Under the pieces are notes generated by a model. The model worked only from the letters and a program-made list of their open reading frames with translations. It was not told the origin of the DNA and did not search any database. Shown here one piece after another: positions 3,101 to 38,163 of a DNA stretch of 38,163 nucleotides. A program made the translations under genes and the position numbers. This DNA is from Sterolibacterium sp. GTDB lineage: Bacteria > Pseudomonadota > Gammaproteobacteria > Burkholderiales > Rhodocyclaceae. The DNA lies in the NCBI GenBank assembly GCA_018062105.1, contig JAGOSV010000020.1, positions 1-38,163 of the forward strand. The letters are read 5' to 3'. The stretch's first letter is position 1; each line of letters begins with the position of its first letter.

Positions 3101-3364
3101 CCCCGAGGTGGTGTCCTGGTACAGGCCTTCGGCGATGAGCTTTTGCAGCACGCCCATGTCTTCGAGAATGTCGAGTGCCGGTGCGCACCAGGCATCGCCG
3201 CAGTACTTGTCACGCGGGAAGCGTGCCTTGTCGAGCAGGGCGACGCGCAGTGGACGGCCCTGCTGGCGGCTTTCATGTGCCAGGTAGTAGGCCGTGGTCG
3301 CACCGGCCGGGCCGGCACCGACGACGATGGCGTCAAACTCCTGTTCCTGCGGTACGTGGGACAT
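143..3364 (-). CDS. Geranylgeranyl-reductase-like flavoprotein fused to a flavodoxin/FAD/NADPH diflavin reductase
   Basis: This 1073-residue protein joins two complete enzymes. Residues 1-430 form a geranylgeranyl-reductase-family FAD oxidoreductase: GAGPAG dinucleotide motif at 17-22, CGDAWC near 55-60, and GDAAGQTDPLTGEGI at 299-313. A linker (about 430-490) leads to a flavodoxin FMN domain (LLILYGSEYG, 494-503). A CysJ/cytochrome-P450-reductase-like FAD domain follows (RFYSIASSP, about 845), then an NADPH domain (IGPGTGVAPF) ending in YHKDVWA, typical of that family. The family inference is that NADPH electrons pass FAD to FMN and then to the N-terminal flavin, which would reduce a C=C bond of an isoprenoid or similar substrate. 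The substrate is unknown. The start ATG has GAGG 9 bases upstream. It is divergent from narK1 across about 285 bases. No frameshift separates the halves, so the fusion appears genuine. Confidence 0.85.
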   Translation of the reverse strand: MSHVPQEQEFDAIVVGAGPAGATTAYYLAHESRQQGRPLRVALLDKARFPRDKYCGDAWCAPALDILEDMGVLQKLIAEGLYQDTTSGGFVSPSGENYMTSESGDVQVRKENRTFAIRRMICDERIARRAAEVGADLIEDAQVSEAHLSGDCWQVRCADGRRFRSAMLIAADGATSRLARSLGIIPDAPTAAAARRYVKGGTHNFKAGGVLLFPEYILPGYVALFRHYNDDIDLGAYIIPGGAARVEDAARIYDDRIYNDPFIQRVLGPRVEFLEPVRTASLRMGGVARSTGRRFMAVGDAAGQTDPLTGEGIHTAMIGGRIAARRVLEMFAACQFDEAASALYHQRWMEAFGKDFNASALSARMSFRFPFFLDAAAKLAERSGDRFMNEFGAIMTGVKPKSTYARPDIAFPLGWEVSKQFFKQKILRQAAGETAYRKRAEENPARSSAFSTVCLRDPKISARSVADAWAQKNRTNPAEELFRFASDDPEARPLLILYGSEYGYCKNAALHLAEELATLTVADAPLSPRVLDLAAHTLIDWSREPLVLLLCATAGDGDFPDNAQDFARWLSQATGNTLGHTAYALLACGDSTYPNFCRAGHHLHTLLQQAGAHALSQAHDVDQEDEDQLAAWFDTVHTLLKQSPPPVPQDSAGDYLQAAVQAHYAGQDDHRRISRQHPRRARILAHTRLTASDEAHDSQETVSLELDLRHFPDPRRMDWQPGDALGVLPHNPADLVTRILELMALAGDTPITLGTDTLSLEDALRTRLDIKPLSRARVEKFLARIKDDKEHRQWQSSLATHAGDEAAAAREYAQGRELIDLLEDYPQTACQLDVADWLKLLPSIQPRFYSIASSPLTDTEQLTLCVSRVRYQTHGRTRSGLASNYLAAQLNTGDECDVFLQTNKSFRPPPLDTPVGCVMIGPGTGVAPFRGFVQHLAKQAASHGKRLAEIWPQENTPLLFFGCRHPDRDFLYREEWQALDAAGDIRLFTAFSRSQPEKIYVQHRLRDEAALIWQRLEGGAQFFICGDATHMAGDVEQTLLDIIIQQGNKSRGAARAYLDALAAAGRYHKDVWA

Positions 3365-30664: not shown

Positions 30665-30880
30665 ATGATTATCGAAACCGTCGAACTCGTCAGCCTGCCG
30701 AATGCTCCGGTCTGGCAGGAGAAGGTCTATCGCGCCCATCTCGATACGGGCGATGATGTCGATCTGTTCCAGCAGTTGTGGGATGTGCCGCTGGCACCGG
30801 AGAGTCTGGTGGGGCTGACCGTCAGCGAGGCGCGGGCACGGCGTATGGCCAGAATCCTGGCGGTGGCGACCGCCCACTGA
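30665..30880 (+). CDS. Small conserved-looking protein of unknown function (71 aa)
   Basis: A 71-residue soluble protein starting MIIETVELVSLPNAPVWQEK. AGGAG lies eight bases before the ATG, which is the best reason to regard it as a gene. It is acidic in the middle and ends with an Arg-rich helix (VSEARARRMARILAVATAH). I do not recognise a family and see no cysteine or metal motif. It lies 120 bases after the oxidoreductase on the same strand and ends about 60 bases before the mosaic repeat at 30940. Confidence 0.55.
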   Translation: MIIETVELVSLPNAPVWQEKVYRAHLDTGDDVDLFQQLWDVPLAPESLVGLTVSEARARRMARILAVATAH

Positions 30881-30939
30881 ATCGCCGAGGCGACATCGGT
30901 CGTGTTGACCGAAGCGCCCGGAAAACCAGCATTAAACCC

Positions 30940-31072
30940 AGGGAGCCGCTGATTAAATCAAATCCGTTCGGGCTGAGCTGTGCCCAAAGGAAACCTCCGA
31001 GTGTACGTTTTTCCGGTGGTCTGGTCAGGCGCGACGACGCGGCATGCGGGGTACGGAGTACCTGCAAGGAGG
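30940..31072. repeat. Mosaic dispersed repeat: type B half-element joined to type A fragment
   Basis: Positions 30940-30978 match the left arm of the type B element at 19473-19510 with one substitution (AGGGARCCGCTGATTAAATC and on to GGGCTGAGC). Positions 30997-31072 match the type A repeat at the window's left edge in inverted orientation. The junction between them is about 31 bp that I cannot assign. The right boundary, after CCTGCAAGGAGG, cuts directly into helicase coding sequence. Confidence 0.75.
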
Positions 31073-32841
31073 CCAGGCGGTTGCTCAGCTCTTTGGGGTC
31101 GAATTGGCCGTTACGCCAGGGGATTTCGCGGTAGTCGACCGTTTCGTCGAGCAGCCCGTAATAGTGAAAGGGGGCAAGCAGACCAGCGCGGATGGCGGTG
31201 AATAGGTGGGTGTTGAAGACGAGGTTATCGTCACACAGGGAAAGAATGTCGGATTGATCGGTCCGGTTCGGCGTGGCGGTGAGCCCGAGCAGAAAGCGTG
31301 GTTGAAAGTGATTGAGCAGGGCGCGATAGGTGGCTGCGGCGGCGTGGTGAAATTCGTCGATGACGATGTAGTCGAAATGATCCGGCGCGAACTGGGAAAG
31401 GTGATGGATTTTTCCCAGGGTTTGAACCGAAGCACAGAGGATGTCGGCATCGCGGTCGCGCTGGCGTCCGGCGTAATAGCCCAGGCGGGATTGAGGGCGG
31501 ATACGCAGGAAGGTGCTGGCTGCCTGGTTGAGAATTTCTTCCCGGTGGGCGACGAAAAGAACCCGTCGGACCTGCATTTGCTGGCTGTCGAAGGCGGCCA
31601 GCCAGGTTTTCCCAAGGCCTGTGGCCAGAACGACCAGCCCCCGGCGAAAGCCCTCTTCGCGGGTTTGTTTCAAGGCGGCCAAGGCTTCCACTTGAACGGA
31701 GGTGGGCTCGGGCGGCGTAGGCGTCGATCCAGTCGTGGGTCAGCGGGACGGTGTTGGGGTGGGCGAACAGGATTTCAAAACGGCTACGCGCTTCGAGAAA
31801 ACCGGCGTCTTCCGGGTATTCGATGCGGTAATTCCATTCAAGGCCGTCGGTCAGGGCTTGTCGGCTGATGTTGCTGGAACCGATGAAGCCGGTGCCATTT
31901 ATCTGGCCTTTGTCCGGAAAATGGGCAAATAGATAGGCTTTCAGGTGAAAGCTGCTACCGGATGTTTCGAAAGCCCGTATCTGCGCGCCCTGTTCTTGCA
32001 GGAGCATCAAGAGACGCAAGGCTTCAGGGTCCGTGATGCCGAGATAATCGCTGGTCAGGATGCGCAGGCGGGCAGCTTGAGTCGGCCGTGAGGCCGCATC
32101 GTGGAGATCGGGGAGGAGCAGGCGCAGGCCGGTGAGCTTGATGAAGGCGACGGCAAAGTCGATTTCATCGGCGCGATGAATGGCCGCAGACAGTTGCGGC
32201 AAAAAGGGGTGTTCACGGCTGCCCGTAATGAGGCGGGCCGGGGGCGGCAAGCGGCGTTCGACCAGCGCATTGAGCCAGGATTCTTCACGTCCGGGCCGCT
32301 GATCCTGGGTGATCCAGCATTCGAGGGTGCCGAGTTCAGGCAAGCCTTCAAGCCATCGTTGCAGGCGGGCTTCGGTGGCATCGGTGAAATGACGGCCCTG
32401 GTGCTGACGTTCGGATTCGCCGAGTTTGAAACTGAAATAGGCCGTGCCGCCGGGTTTCAGGCTGCGCCAGAGGCGAGCCAGCACGGCGGGTATTTCCGCT
32501 TCGGGGATGTGTAGCAGGCTGGCGCATGACCACAGGCCGTCGTAGCAGGCGACTTCTTCGACTTCCTGAAAGCGTCGAACAGGGACGGGTTGGCCAAGGT
32601 GTTGGCTGGCCAAGGCAGCAATCTTGATGGAGGCATCAAAGGCATGGATGCGAAAGCCGCGTTGGAGGAAGGCTTTGCTGTCTCGACCCGAGCCGCAACC
32701 CGCATCCAGAATCAGCCCGCCAGCCGGAATCCGGGGCAGGAAACGCTCGTACAACGCCGCCATATCGACATCGACCGTATCGGTAAAAAACTGCGCGGCC
32801 TGGTTGTCGTAATAAGCCAGCGTGTTGTGGGCAGCGGTCAT
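31073..32841 (-). pseudogene. Methyltransferase-PLD-SF2 helicase fusion, frameshifted and 3'-truncated
   Basis: The N-terminal part is a class I SAM methyltransferase (LILDAGCGSGRDS at about 43-55, then SCASLLHIPEAEI). It continues into a phospholipase-D-like nuclease region with HLKAYLF near 300 and GSSNIS. Near 31710-31712 the frame shifts: one surplus C in a CCC run (minus strand) would restore the join. The helicase then continues in the other frame with ATGLGKT (Walker A), DEFHH and LTATP. Helicase homology stops at about 31073 where the mosaic repeat begins, so lobe 2 and anything after it are missing; the shifted frame runs through repeat sequence to 30822. The ATG lacks a good Shine-Dalgarno. 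An alternative is two separate proteins plus a truncated helicase, but the continuous homology argues for one broken gene. Confidence 0.75.
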
Positions 32842-35827: not shown

Positions 35828-36565
35828 TCAGCGCTGGGTGTCGTCCTGCATGGCGGCAACGAGGTTGTATTGCTCGTCGGTCAGCATGATGAATACACCA
35901 CGCGCTTCAGCCAGCAGGCGCTCGCCGGCAAACAGGCGGCCGGAAGTCAGGATCTTGCGTCCTTCCGTTCCTTCGTATTCTCCTTCGAGGCGCAGCTCGG
36001 TGAGCAGGGGGGTTGGGGCGCGGTAGGTGATGGTCAGGGTGCCGGTCATGCCGGGACGTTTGGAAAAGCCCTGCACGAAGCCGAGCAGCTCGTCAAAAAT
36101 GGCCGCGACATGGCCGCCGTGGACGACCCCCGGCGCACCTTCAAAGCTGCGGCCAAAACGGATGCTGCCATGGGCGCGACCATTTTCGGCCCACAGATTG
36201 AGCGGTGGGGCGACCGGATTGGCACGTCCGGTGAGCGGGCTGAATTCGATAAAATCGCGAACATCCTCGGGGCTGATGCGATGACCAAAACTGGTCCGGG
36301 TTGGCTTGTCGGGAGACTGTTCCAGGGTGGCCGCCAGGGTTTCCAGTTGTCCGGCCAGATGATGAACCTCTGTCAGATCGGGCTGCTTCATGATGAGGCC
36401 GTCGATGATGCGTCGCAAGGCTTCACCGGCGCGGCGTTTTTCCAGCAGCAGCGGTGTTTCTGCCGCCGGCTCGGGAAAGGCGATGCGGGCACTATCTTCC
36501 GGTGTCGAGTGGGTCGAGTGGGTCGAGTGGGTCGAGTGGGTCGAGAAGGGCGGGGGCGTGTTCAT
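35828..36565 (-). CDS. PaaI-type hotdog thioesterase with N-terminal STH repeats
   Basis: A 245-residue protein. The C-terminal half is a hotdog-fold acyl-CoA thioesterase; the active-site signature is GVVHGGHVAAIFDELLG. The N-terminus has about five Ser-Thr-His units from a 9-base tandem repeat. A helical segment of about 60 residues (RAGEALRRIIDGLIMKQPDL onward) precedes the hotdog fold. ATG 36565 is the only ATG in the right region; a longer frame upstream has only a remote start, and no strong Shine-Dalgarno is seen. It leads the exporter operon, which suggests release or export of an acid, but that is inference. Confidence 0.8.
   Translation of the reverse strand: MNTPPPFSTHSTHSTHSTHSTPEDSARIAFPEPAAETPLLLEKRRAGEALRRIIDGLIMKQPDLTEVHHLAGQLETLAATLEQSPDKPTRTSFGHRISPEDVRDFIEFSPLTGRANPVAPPLNLWAENGRAHGSIRFGRSFEGAPGVVHGGHVAAIFDELLGFVQGFSKRPGMTGTLTITYRAPTPLLTELRLEGEYEGTEGRKILTSGRLFAGERLLAEARGVFIMLTDEQYNLVAAMQDDTQR
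36504..36548 (-). repeat. In-frame 9-bp tandem repeat coding Ser-Thr-His units
   Basis: Four perfect copies of GTCGAGTGG (plus strand) and a fifth with two changes. They are read on the minus strand as Thr-His-Ser repeats at the thioesterase N-terminus. The unit length keeps the frame when copies are gained or lost. Confidence 0.9.
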
Positions 36566-36652
36566 CGCAGGGGCTTTCTTGATGGGCAGGCCAGGAGCAT
36601 GGCCAGGAGCGCAGGCAGAGGGAGGGTTCCCCGGGGCGCAGATAAATGTGAA

Positions 36653-36658
36653 ATTATA
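36653..36658 (-). promoter_or_regulatory. -10 element for the thioesterase-exporter operon
   Basis: On the minus strand this is a perfect TATAAT about 88 bases before the thioesterase start codon. No good -35 hexamer is present 17 bases upstream, so strength is uncertain. Confidence 0.4.
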
Positions 36659-36735
36659 GGGCGTGACACCGGATGCGCCGTGCGGTTTCCTGCCGCTTCC
36701 GGATTGTTCAATAACAAGGAACAAGGAGAATGGAT

Positions 36736-37506
36736 ATGGGCGCAGGCAACATCGTTTCCACGCAGGCCGGTCAGGAGCGCGTGGCCATCGTCAGCGGCGG
36801 TGGTACCGGCATCGGGCGAGCCATTTGTCTGCGTCTGGCGCGTGACGGACTGCGCGTCGTCGTCGGCTATTCCCGTTCGGCAGAAGGCGCATTGCAGACC
36901 GTGCGGCGGATCGAGGCCGCCGGTGGTGTGGCCTGTGCGCTGCTGGTCGACATCACCAGCGAGACGGCGGTGCAGGCGCTGTTTGCCGCTGCCCGCCAGC
37001 ATTACGGGCGCATCGATGTGGTCATCAACAATGCCGGCATCGGCTACATGAAGTCCTTTGACCAGATCGACATGGTGGCCTACGACCGCATCTTCAATGT
37101 TAACGCCCGCGGCACCTTCATGATGTGCCGCGAAGCTGCCCGCACCATCGAAGACCACGGTCGCATCATCAACATCTCGAGCGGCATTACCATGTCCAAC
37201 AGTGAAGGCATGGCCCTGTATGCCGGTAGCAAGGCCGCACTGGAAGCCTTCGCCAAGGTGCTGGCCCGCGAGCTGGCTCCGCGCGGCATCACGGTCAATA
37301 TCGTCTCACCCGGCATGACCGACACCCCCATGCTGGAAGGGGGCGATGCCGTCATGCTGCGTAAGGTCGGTGCCAGCCTCGCCGCCATGCGCCGCCTCGG
37401 CCAGCCCGAAGATGTCGCCGACGGTGTCGCCGCCCTTGTTTCCACCGACGGCCGCTGGATCACCGGCCAGAACATCCATGTCGATGGCGGTACGATTATT
37501 GTATGA
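36736..37506 (+). CDS. Short-chain dehydrogenase/reductase (FabG-like)
   Basis: A 256-residue NAD(P)-dependent SDR. The cofactor motif is GGGTGIG (21-27), with NNAG at 98-101, NISSG around 146-150, and the catalytic Tyr162-x3-Lys166 (YAGSK). The C-terminus GRWITGQNIHVDGG is typical of classical SDRs and FabG. Two ATG codons are in frame at 36730 and 36736. AAGGAG at 36723-36728 sits one base from the first and seven from the second, so I choose the second. It is divergent from the thioesterase operon. The substrate is unknown, though a ketoacyl or hydroxyacyl thioester is plausible. Confidence 0.88.
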   Translation: MGAGNIVSTQAGQERVAIVSGGGTGIGRAICLRLARDGLRVVVGYSRSAEGALQTVRRIEAAGGVACALLVDITSETAVQALFAAARQHYGRIDVVINNAGIGYMKSFDQIDMVAYDRIFNVNARGTFMMCREAARTIEDHGRIINISSGITMSNSEGMALYAGSKAALEAFAKVLARELAPRGITVNIVSPGMTDTPMLEGGDAVMLRKVGASLAAMRRLGQPEDVADGVAALVSTDGRWITGQNIHVDGGTIIV

Positions 37507-37554
37507 TGTTGTTCTTTTTATTCGCACTGCTTATCGGCGGGATGCGTGGTGAAG

Positions 37555-38160
37555 ATGGAATTTGTTGCACATCGGAAGCAAGGGTGCGGCGGCATAGCGG
37601 AACATTTACTGGAGGAGCATCTGAAAGCAGTGGCTGCACTGGCCACTGGCTTTGCTCCTTCAGGTTTTGGGGAATGGTCATATCTGGCCGGTCTTTGGCA
37701 TGATCTTGGCAAATACCGCCCGGGCTTCCAGCGTTATATCCGTCAGGATGCCGATGCCTCCGCCCACGATACCGTCGCCTCGCACGACAAGACCCATTCG
37801 GCCGCAGGAGCAAGGCTGGCGATCGATCGTTTTGGCGTTGCAGGGCATGCGCTGGCCTATCTGATTGCCGGACATCACGCCGGGCTGTCGGATTGGCGCG
37901 ATCTGGATTACCGCCTGCAAAGCGATGCTGCACGGTGCGAGCTGAACGAGTCTCTGGAGTCGATCCCCGGCGACATTCAGCAAGCCTCTTTGGTGTCGGA
38001 TCTGTGTCGGGTTCCTGGCGGTTCAAAAGGCTTTGCCCTGTGGCTGCGTCTCTTGTTCTCCTGTCTCGTCGATGCCGACTTTCTGGACACCGAGCGCTTC
38101 ATGGAGGCAGGCAAGGCCGATTCACGATCGCGCCCGCCAGCAATGGCGGGCGAGGATTGA
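37555..38160 (+). CDS. Standalone Cas3-type HD nuclease, ending inside a CRISPR repeat
   Basis: A 201-residue protein equal to the HD nuclease domain of type I Cas3, with no helicase part. Metal-binding residues are all present: His22 (EEHLKAV), His49-Asp50 (WHDLGKY), His81 (THSAAGA), His107-His108 (AGHHAG) and an Asp at 173 or 175 (LVDADFLDTE). In full Cas3 proteins the helicase follows about here. Instead the frame enters a CRISPR-like repeat, which encodes the last eleven residues and the TGA stop. Start ATG 37555 gives MEFVAH, the usual Cas3 start; two GTG codons just upstream are alternatives. The gap from the SDR gene is 48 bases, so cotranscription is possible. It could be a deletion remnant or a functional Cas3''-like nuclease. 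Confidence 0.8.
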   Translation: MEFVAHRKQGCGGIAEHLLEEHLKAVAALATGFAPSGFGEWSYLAGLWHDLGKYRPGFQRYIRQDADASAHDTVASHDKTHSAAGARLAIDRFGVAGHALAYLIAGHHAGLSDWRDLDYRLQSDAARCELNESLESIPGDIQQASLVSDLCRVPGGSKGFALWLRLLFSCLVDADFLDTERFMEAGKADSRSRPPAMAGED

Positions 38161-38163
38161 AAC
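38128..38163 (+). CRISPR. Single CRISPR-like repeat at the window's right edge
   Basis: The last 36 bases have the architecture of a type I-C-like CRISPR repeat. Perfect 8-base arms CGCCCGCC (38131-38138) and GGCGGGCG (38145-38152) flank the loop AGCAAT. They are followed by AGG and the terminal ATTGAAAC, the typical crRNA 5' tag. In this orientation spacers would continue to the right, beyond the window. Only one copy is visible, so the array itself is inferred. There is no AT-rich leader on the left; coding sequence of the HD nuclease runs straight in. Confidence 0.65.

Follow-up and report, generated by a model that had tools for sequence, protein, structure and literature searches.

A type I-C cas3 fragment that runs into a CRISPR repeat at a contig end in Sterolibacterium sp.: a probable deletion remnant

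In some type I CRISPR-Cas systems other than type I-C, a stand-alone, HD-only protein (Cas3'') works with a separate helicase (Cas3'). In type I-C, Cas3 comprises HD, helicase and C-terminal domains, of which the helicase unwinds DNA; the protein cleaves DNA with or without ATP, and a helicase-site mutant retains some activity (PMC11417383, available part). Solitary repeats carried by viruses are described as RNA anti-CRISPRs, one of them of type I-C, in the accessible portion of a second article (PMC10651486), and isolated cas loci and CRISPRs have been regarded as possible remnants (PMC5294841, in the section at hand). Among the matches listed by narrow term searches, which are no proof of absence in print, no title deals with the fusion of an HD domain to a CRISPR repeat.

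The window analysed here is an entire contig (G000:C45) of 38,163 bases. It belongs to a genome of Sterolibacterium sp. that is a bin of 156 contigs, 88.5% complete. At its right end, the 5' part of a cas3 gene, its first quarter, is directly joined to a CRISPR repeat (Table 1).

Table 1. Features at the right end of the window
Feature	Position	Strand	Basis or remark
Gap of 39 bp between the SDR gene (36730-37506) and cas3	37507-37545	+	
HD stub ORF: GTG start, 204 aa, open to TGA 38158-38160	37546-38160	+	ORF listing
5' part of type I-C cas3: 194 codons, HD nuclease domain	37546-38127	+	
CRISPR repeat: positions 2-37 of the 37-nt type I-C repeat of the genus	38128-38163	+	Exact match to the G001 repeat
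TGA within the repeat, closing the HD frame after 10 repeat-encoded codons	38158-38160	+	ORF listing, direct reading

The SDR gene that precedes cas3 is also present in three genomes of the same genus (G001, G002 and G003), where other genes follow it in two arrangements. As far as gene names can be read from the sequence, a LemA-like neighbourhood follows in two of these genus-mates and yebC-ruvC-ruvA-like genes in the third (L164, L165 and L166, from G002, G003 and G001, respectively). Since different genes follow the SDR gene in the genus-mates, the type I-C locus lies at different places within the genus and was seemingly placed separately. A plasmid-borne origin was considered and rejected: in a distant search with 36700-38163, the matches of the best 20 of 90 records are all confined to the SDR gene. 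Two further observations concern the DNA to the left: (i) on the minus strand (30822-32841), a methyltransferase-like ORF (31231-32841) overlaps, in two frames, a helicase ORF (30822-31691) whose match to a type I restriction R-subunit model is partial, as would be seen if a fused gene had been broken; and (ii) a 9-bp tandem repeat, GTCGAGTGG, which may vary in copy number, is found at 36504-36548, close to the beginning of an ORF on the minus strand (35828-36724) that is thioesterase-like by reading.

The ORF at the contig end matches the NCBIfam model TIGR01596 (cas3_HD) over residues 22-182 with 86.4 bits, the cut-off being 43.45 bits. In Pfam, it matches Cas3_HD (31.7 bits) and HD (30.4 bits), both over their cut-offs. 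Two solved structures were matched, both of them Cas3 chains: 8zns_A (E 4.5e-31) and 8g9u_P (E 9e-31). The entry 8g9u we take to be Neisseria lactamica Cas3. When the ORF was aligned with the HD sequences of 36 of 37 surveyed loci (in the remaining one, G066, a contig edge cuts the HD domain, and no sequence was obtained), it had the consensus residue at 48/48 of the columns conserved at 90% or more; these residues include H9, H25, H52, D53, H84, H110, H111 and D178. Which of the conserved H and D residues of the HD domain bind metal is known from the family. By sequence homology, the identity of the domain may be taken as settled, while the contig carries neither the helicase nor the C-terminal domain of Cas3. 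The initial annotation had described an intact HD nuclease with all metal ligands and no helicase; the domain and its conserved H/D residues are borne out by the TIGR01596 match and the 48/48 columns.

The same HD query matched 22 of 150 relatives and, in an order-wide search at a stricter E-value, 27 of 399 genomes, the own genome included in both cases. As the own genome is the sole overlap between the two lists, there are 47 related matches, 44 of them in open frames of at least 753 aa. The shorter ones are those of G066 (676 aa), which its contig edge truncates, G081 (336 aa), close to such an edge, and G085 (158 aa), itself a deletion or truncation. Judged by open frames, a native HD-only gene is not among the 47 related matches. 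In the genus-mate G001 (Sterolibacterium sp. Gw_Eff_bin_535, JAGOVA010000002.1), the open frame has 1012 aa and leaves cas3 near its end; its Cas3 is 62% identical to the ORF of the window over query residues 8-195. Homology to these longer proteins continues up to arginine 194, directly before the junction and conserved in 35/36 sequences, and then the repeat begins. Hence, the ORF can be read as a cut cas3 (an HD stub), and a native HD-only protein at this place appears unlikely. Viral carriers of an HD gene were limited to three loci (36, 36 and 27% identical) in the viral collection, which, like the distant and the GTDB/IMG/VR repeat collections, may omit records near the own genome.

The repeat has an 8-bp hairpin and a ATTGAAAC end, and its last base is also the last base of the contig. 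It is identical to the 37-nt repeat of G001 at 36/36 shared positions; G001 has 12 exact copies of it and 13 at up to two mismatches of the 33-nt core. At position 1, where some other genomes vary, the window has A and all 12 exact copies of G001 have G. A search of 395 family genomes, the own one among them, found the core at up to two mismatches in two, namely the own genome and G001. A reversed-pattern control of the search in the own genome gave 0 matches. The GTDB collection contains 49 stretches with a broader form of the repeat, mostly from records with betaproteobacterial names; taking the commonest repeat of each stretch, A before GGATTGAAAC is seen only in G001 and in one Geobacteraceae-labelled bin. 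Seven copies of the broader form make up an array at L097:9691-10156 (IMGVR_UViG_3300002220_000093), the contig being classified as viral.

Given that the 36 letters equal the genus's own repeat, two candidates are ruled out: (i) a chance hairpin; and (ii) native cas3 codons taken for a repeat, an idea raised because the residues at the junction resemble G001 Cas3. The exact match to G001 and the ORF listing confirm, besides, that the reading frame runs into a genuine CRISPR repeat and is terminated there by a TGA, as had been annotated at the outset. By direct reading, two of the three frames of the repeat have no stop; with the three frames read, a stop inside the repeat is an ordinary outcome for the HD frame that enters it. 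A CRISPR array comprises at least two repeats plus spacers. What is found here is one repeat at the contig end with no second one in the own genome, either at up to three mismatches in 33 nt or at up to one mismatch in the 3' 19 nt; the array is presumed to follow it.

In the rest of the bin, no Cas3 helicase (cas3_core) reached the cut-off of 102.45 bits; there were weak matches of 24.9 and 23.5 bits, similar to those found in 14/14 control genomes. Csd1 and Csd2 gave 0 matches (TIGR01863 and TIGR02589). Two cas1 genes are present: a type II one beside Cas9 (775 bits, contig C136) and another on C29, which adjoins ORFs that are Cmr-like by sequence reading, the one tested having no NCBIfam match. 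A type I-C Cas1 was not detected in the bin, the non-type-II cas1 scoring 168.6 bits against a cut-off of 385. The Cas9 locus lies at L028:6526-11218 (G000:C136), where the contig ends approximately 430 bp past cas1, and the locus with the Cmr-like ORFs at L027:11029-17972 (G000:C29). The bin thus holds other CRISPR systems, whereas of the type I-C parts sought beyond the HD stub and its repeat (Cas3 helicase, Csd1, Csd2, Cas1 and a second repeat) none was found. As to other cas genes with a matching repeat, for which the initial annotation had proposed to look, the repeat was found in a single copy and no type I-C Cas1 reached the cut-off. In any case, since 11.5% of the genome is missing, the absence of type I-C genes is weak evidence.

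The way in which type I-C loci decay can be seen in their relatives. Of the 47 related matches, 37 entered the survey; the six weakest matches among the 150 relatives and the four weakest of the order-wide search were left out. Eight Cas segments from the complete locus of G065 served as queries against the DNA downstream of each. The contig ends before cas1 in four loci (G520, G562, G698 and G513), and 33 were judged. In 30 of these 33, the cas3 helicase, cas5, cas8c, cas7, cas4 and cas1 are all present in type I-C order; in five of the 30 (G066, G709, G519, G688 and G456), an array was not seen in the fetched stretch. In intact loci, the array begins some 8 kb past the HD domain (e.g., G065, 8.5 kb; G039, 7.9 kb). 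At least six of the 37 loci (G038, G053, G009, G015, G621 and G467) have a contig edge in the array or within 50 nt of it, from which it follows that arrays break assemblies.

The other three loci show internal deletions that removed interference genes but kept cas1, cas2 and the array. In G001 (L026:3663-3669, G001:C130), the end of cas3 is joined directly to cas7 from about residue 16 (Csd2, 378 bits), with no cas5 or cas8c match; cas4, cas1, cas2 and the 12 exact repeats follow. In the single-contig genome G085 (L098:6062-12473, G085:C1), the deletion extends from the middle of the HD domain to a point before cas4, and the order is: truncated HD stub, a short ORF that reads as antitoxin-like, cas4, cas1, cas2 and a long array; two frames are needed to match this cas1. 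This locus gave no match to the cas3 helicase, cas5, cas8c or cas7. In G740 (L139:11206-11543, G740:C52), where the deletion spans cas5 to cas4, 39% of cas5 and 24% of cas4 are found in overlapping matches, neither cas8c nor cas7 was matched, and cas1, cas2 and the array are kept.

With these loci in view, the site in the window is probably best explained as a type I-C locus that lost approximately 8 kb between cas3 and its array. The deletion would begin near codon 194 of cas3 and end at one of the repeats in the array downstream, and would have removed the Cas3 helicase, Cascade (cas5, cas8c and cas7), cas4-cas1-cas2 and the leader. The frame of the HD stub would then be closed by the TGA of the repeat, and the contig would stop there because the array to the right failed to assemble. 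We infer the loss of cas5, cas4, cas2 and the leader, and likewise the existence of the junction as real DNA. Several observations favour this reading: (i) the orientation, cas3 and repeat standing to each other as in five related loci with arrays; (ii) the identity of the repeat; (iii) the missing genes; (iv) the contig end; and (v) the relatives with comparable losses. The HD stub and the repeat, each with type I-C kin, together qualify as the remnant of a type I-C locus. Against a deletion, the contig provides no right flank, spacer or second repeat, and the missing genes may be unbinned; moreover, the three precedents keep cas1 and cas2, both of which the locus of the window would have lost. 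The deletion joining cas3 to an array that was first proposed is therefore the best-supported account, by orientation, repeat, missing type I-C genes and 3/33 precedents, whereas the array and the presence of the junction in cells are unproven.

Without the helicase and Cascade, crRNA-guided interference would be dead, and without Cas5 crRNAs would not be processed. The HD stub is most likely without a role. Nevertheless, the ATP-independent cleavage by type I-C Cas3 (PMC11417383, part available) makes an unguided nuclease activity of the HD stub conceivable.

The main rival to a deletion is an assembly or library chimera: cas3 would be intact in the cell, the rest of the locus would lie on unbinned contigs, and the assembler, a gap closer or chimeric reads would have attached a collapsed repeat to the end of the cas3 sequence. 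This is possible, though it is given less credence than a deletion. Provided that the other genes of the locus are simply unbinned, it covers the facts that a deletion explains; the join sits at the extreme end of a contig and on a repeat, the bin comprises 156 contigs, and arrays broke the assembly in the six or more surveyed loci mentioned above. The bin, however, gave no match to the Cas3 helicase over the cut-off, to Csd1 or to Csd2, and the positions at which the nearest known cas3 resembles the repeat are scattered. At the homologous place, G001 cas3 agrees with the repeat at 12/20 positions, a level attained in 0.43% of 2080 offsets (1.9% over 27 positions and 1.3% over 36). If the own cas3 is alike, an exact k-mer overlap would require more than this, and junction-spanning reads were, in consequence, probably needed.

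This in-register similarity was tested in 11 Cas3 genes. In the ten other than that of G001, the fraction of offsets over 20 positions ranges from 0.05 to 0.83; over 27 positions, G072 (0.018) is at the level of G001 (0.019) and the nine other genes are not. There are, hence, weak hints, which may be due to chance, that a short similarity between cas3 and the repeat guided the join, either in the cell or in the library reaction. That the repeat has a different first base speaks against a usual boundary between spacer and repeat. For this reason, a self-targeting spacer that was acquired from cas3 and led the assembler astray is disfavoured, although it is conceivable in principle and some other genomes do vary at this base.

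A very improbable alternative is that the repeat is not part of an array and is instead a solitary unit, of the anti-CRISPR RNA type, on a mobile element inserted in cas3. Such a unit (Racr) is characterised by one repeat within a mobile element and no partial repeats in its vicinity. Solitary repeats do occur in phages (PMC10651486, in the portion available), and a phage-like contig, L096 (IMGVR_UViG_3300006037_000112), carries at 3115-3151 one full 37-nt copy of a Rhodoferax-type relative of the repeat, with no other copy on that contig; but no sequence of a mobile element stands beside the repeat of the window, which is where the contig ends and which lies on the strand that a native array would have with respect to cas3. 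In L096 itself, terminase- and portal-like ORFs can be read, and one ORF enters the repeat in frame and stops at its TGA; that copy is compatible with an attachment site or with a candidate anti-CRISPR of the solitary-repeat kind.

Even less credible is the minimal nuclease-array unit proposed in the initial annotation, that is, a stand-alone HD nuclease whose mRNA runs into the array and serves as pre-crRNA: the intact HD columns, the clean end of the frame inside the repeat and the published in vitro cleavage without ATP (PMC11417383, available text) speak for it, but a recent truncation of any sort would be expected to keep the conserved residues, the repeat contributes ten codons only, neither Csd1 nor Csd2 was matched in the bin, and 0/47 related matches are native HD-only genes by open frame (the three short ones being at or near a contig edge or, in G085, which has cas4, cas1 and cas2 before its array, another deletion). 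Equally remote is a fixed and expressed junction in which the transcript of the HD-only nuclease continues into a type I-C array and borrows the processing enzymes of the genome's other CRISPR systems.

Taken alone, the site where the HD stub meets the repeat carries little weight, being either another decayed CRISPR-Cas locus or a fault of assembly. More useful than the window itself is the survey: 3/33 type I-C loci lost interference genes, each by a different internal deletion. If the junction is real, the window adds a further and more drastic loss of interference with the memory left behind.

Compared with known systems, four likenesses can be drawn. The type I-C locus of G001 (L026/L068) shares with the window the repeat, the orientation and the 62% identical HD domain, but it keeps most of cas3, most of cas7, cas4, cas1, cas2 and the 12 exact repeats. 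Like the window, the decayed type I-C locus of G085 has a truncated Cas3 HD stub as its sole interference remnant with an array downstream, whereas it retains cas4, cas1 and cas2 between the stub and the array, its stub is cut earlier in the HD domain, and its repeat is different. Stand-alone Cas3'' resembles the HD stub in having an HD domain with no helicase in the same polypeptide; in contrast, no separate helicase over the cut-off (cas3_core) was found in the bin, and the relatives of the window are HD-helicase fusions with no native HD-only gene among them. Finally, the type I-C Cas3 of Neisseria lactamica shares its HD nuclease domain with the HD stub but is full-length, with RecA-like helicase domains and a C-terminal domain (PMC11417383, available part).
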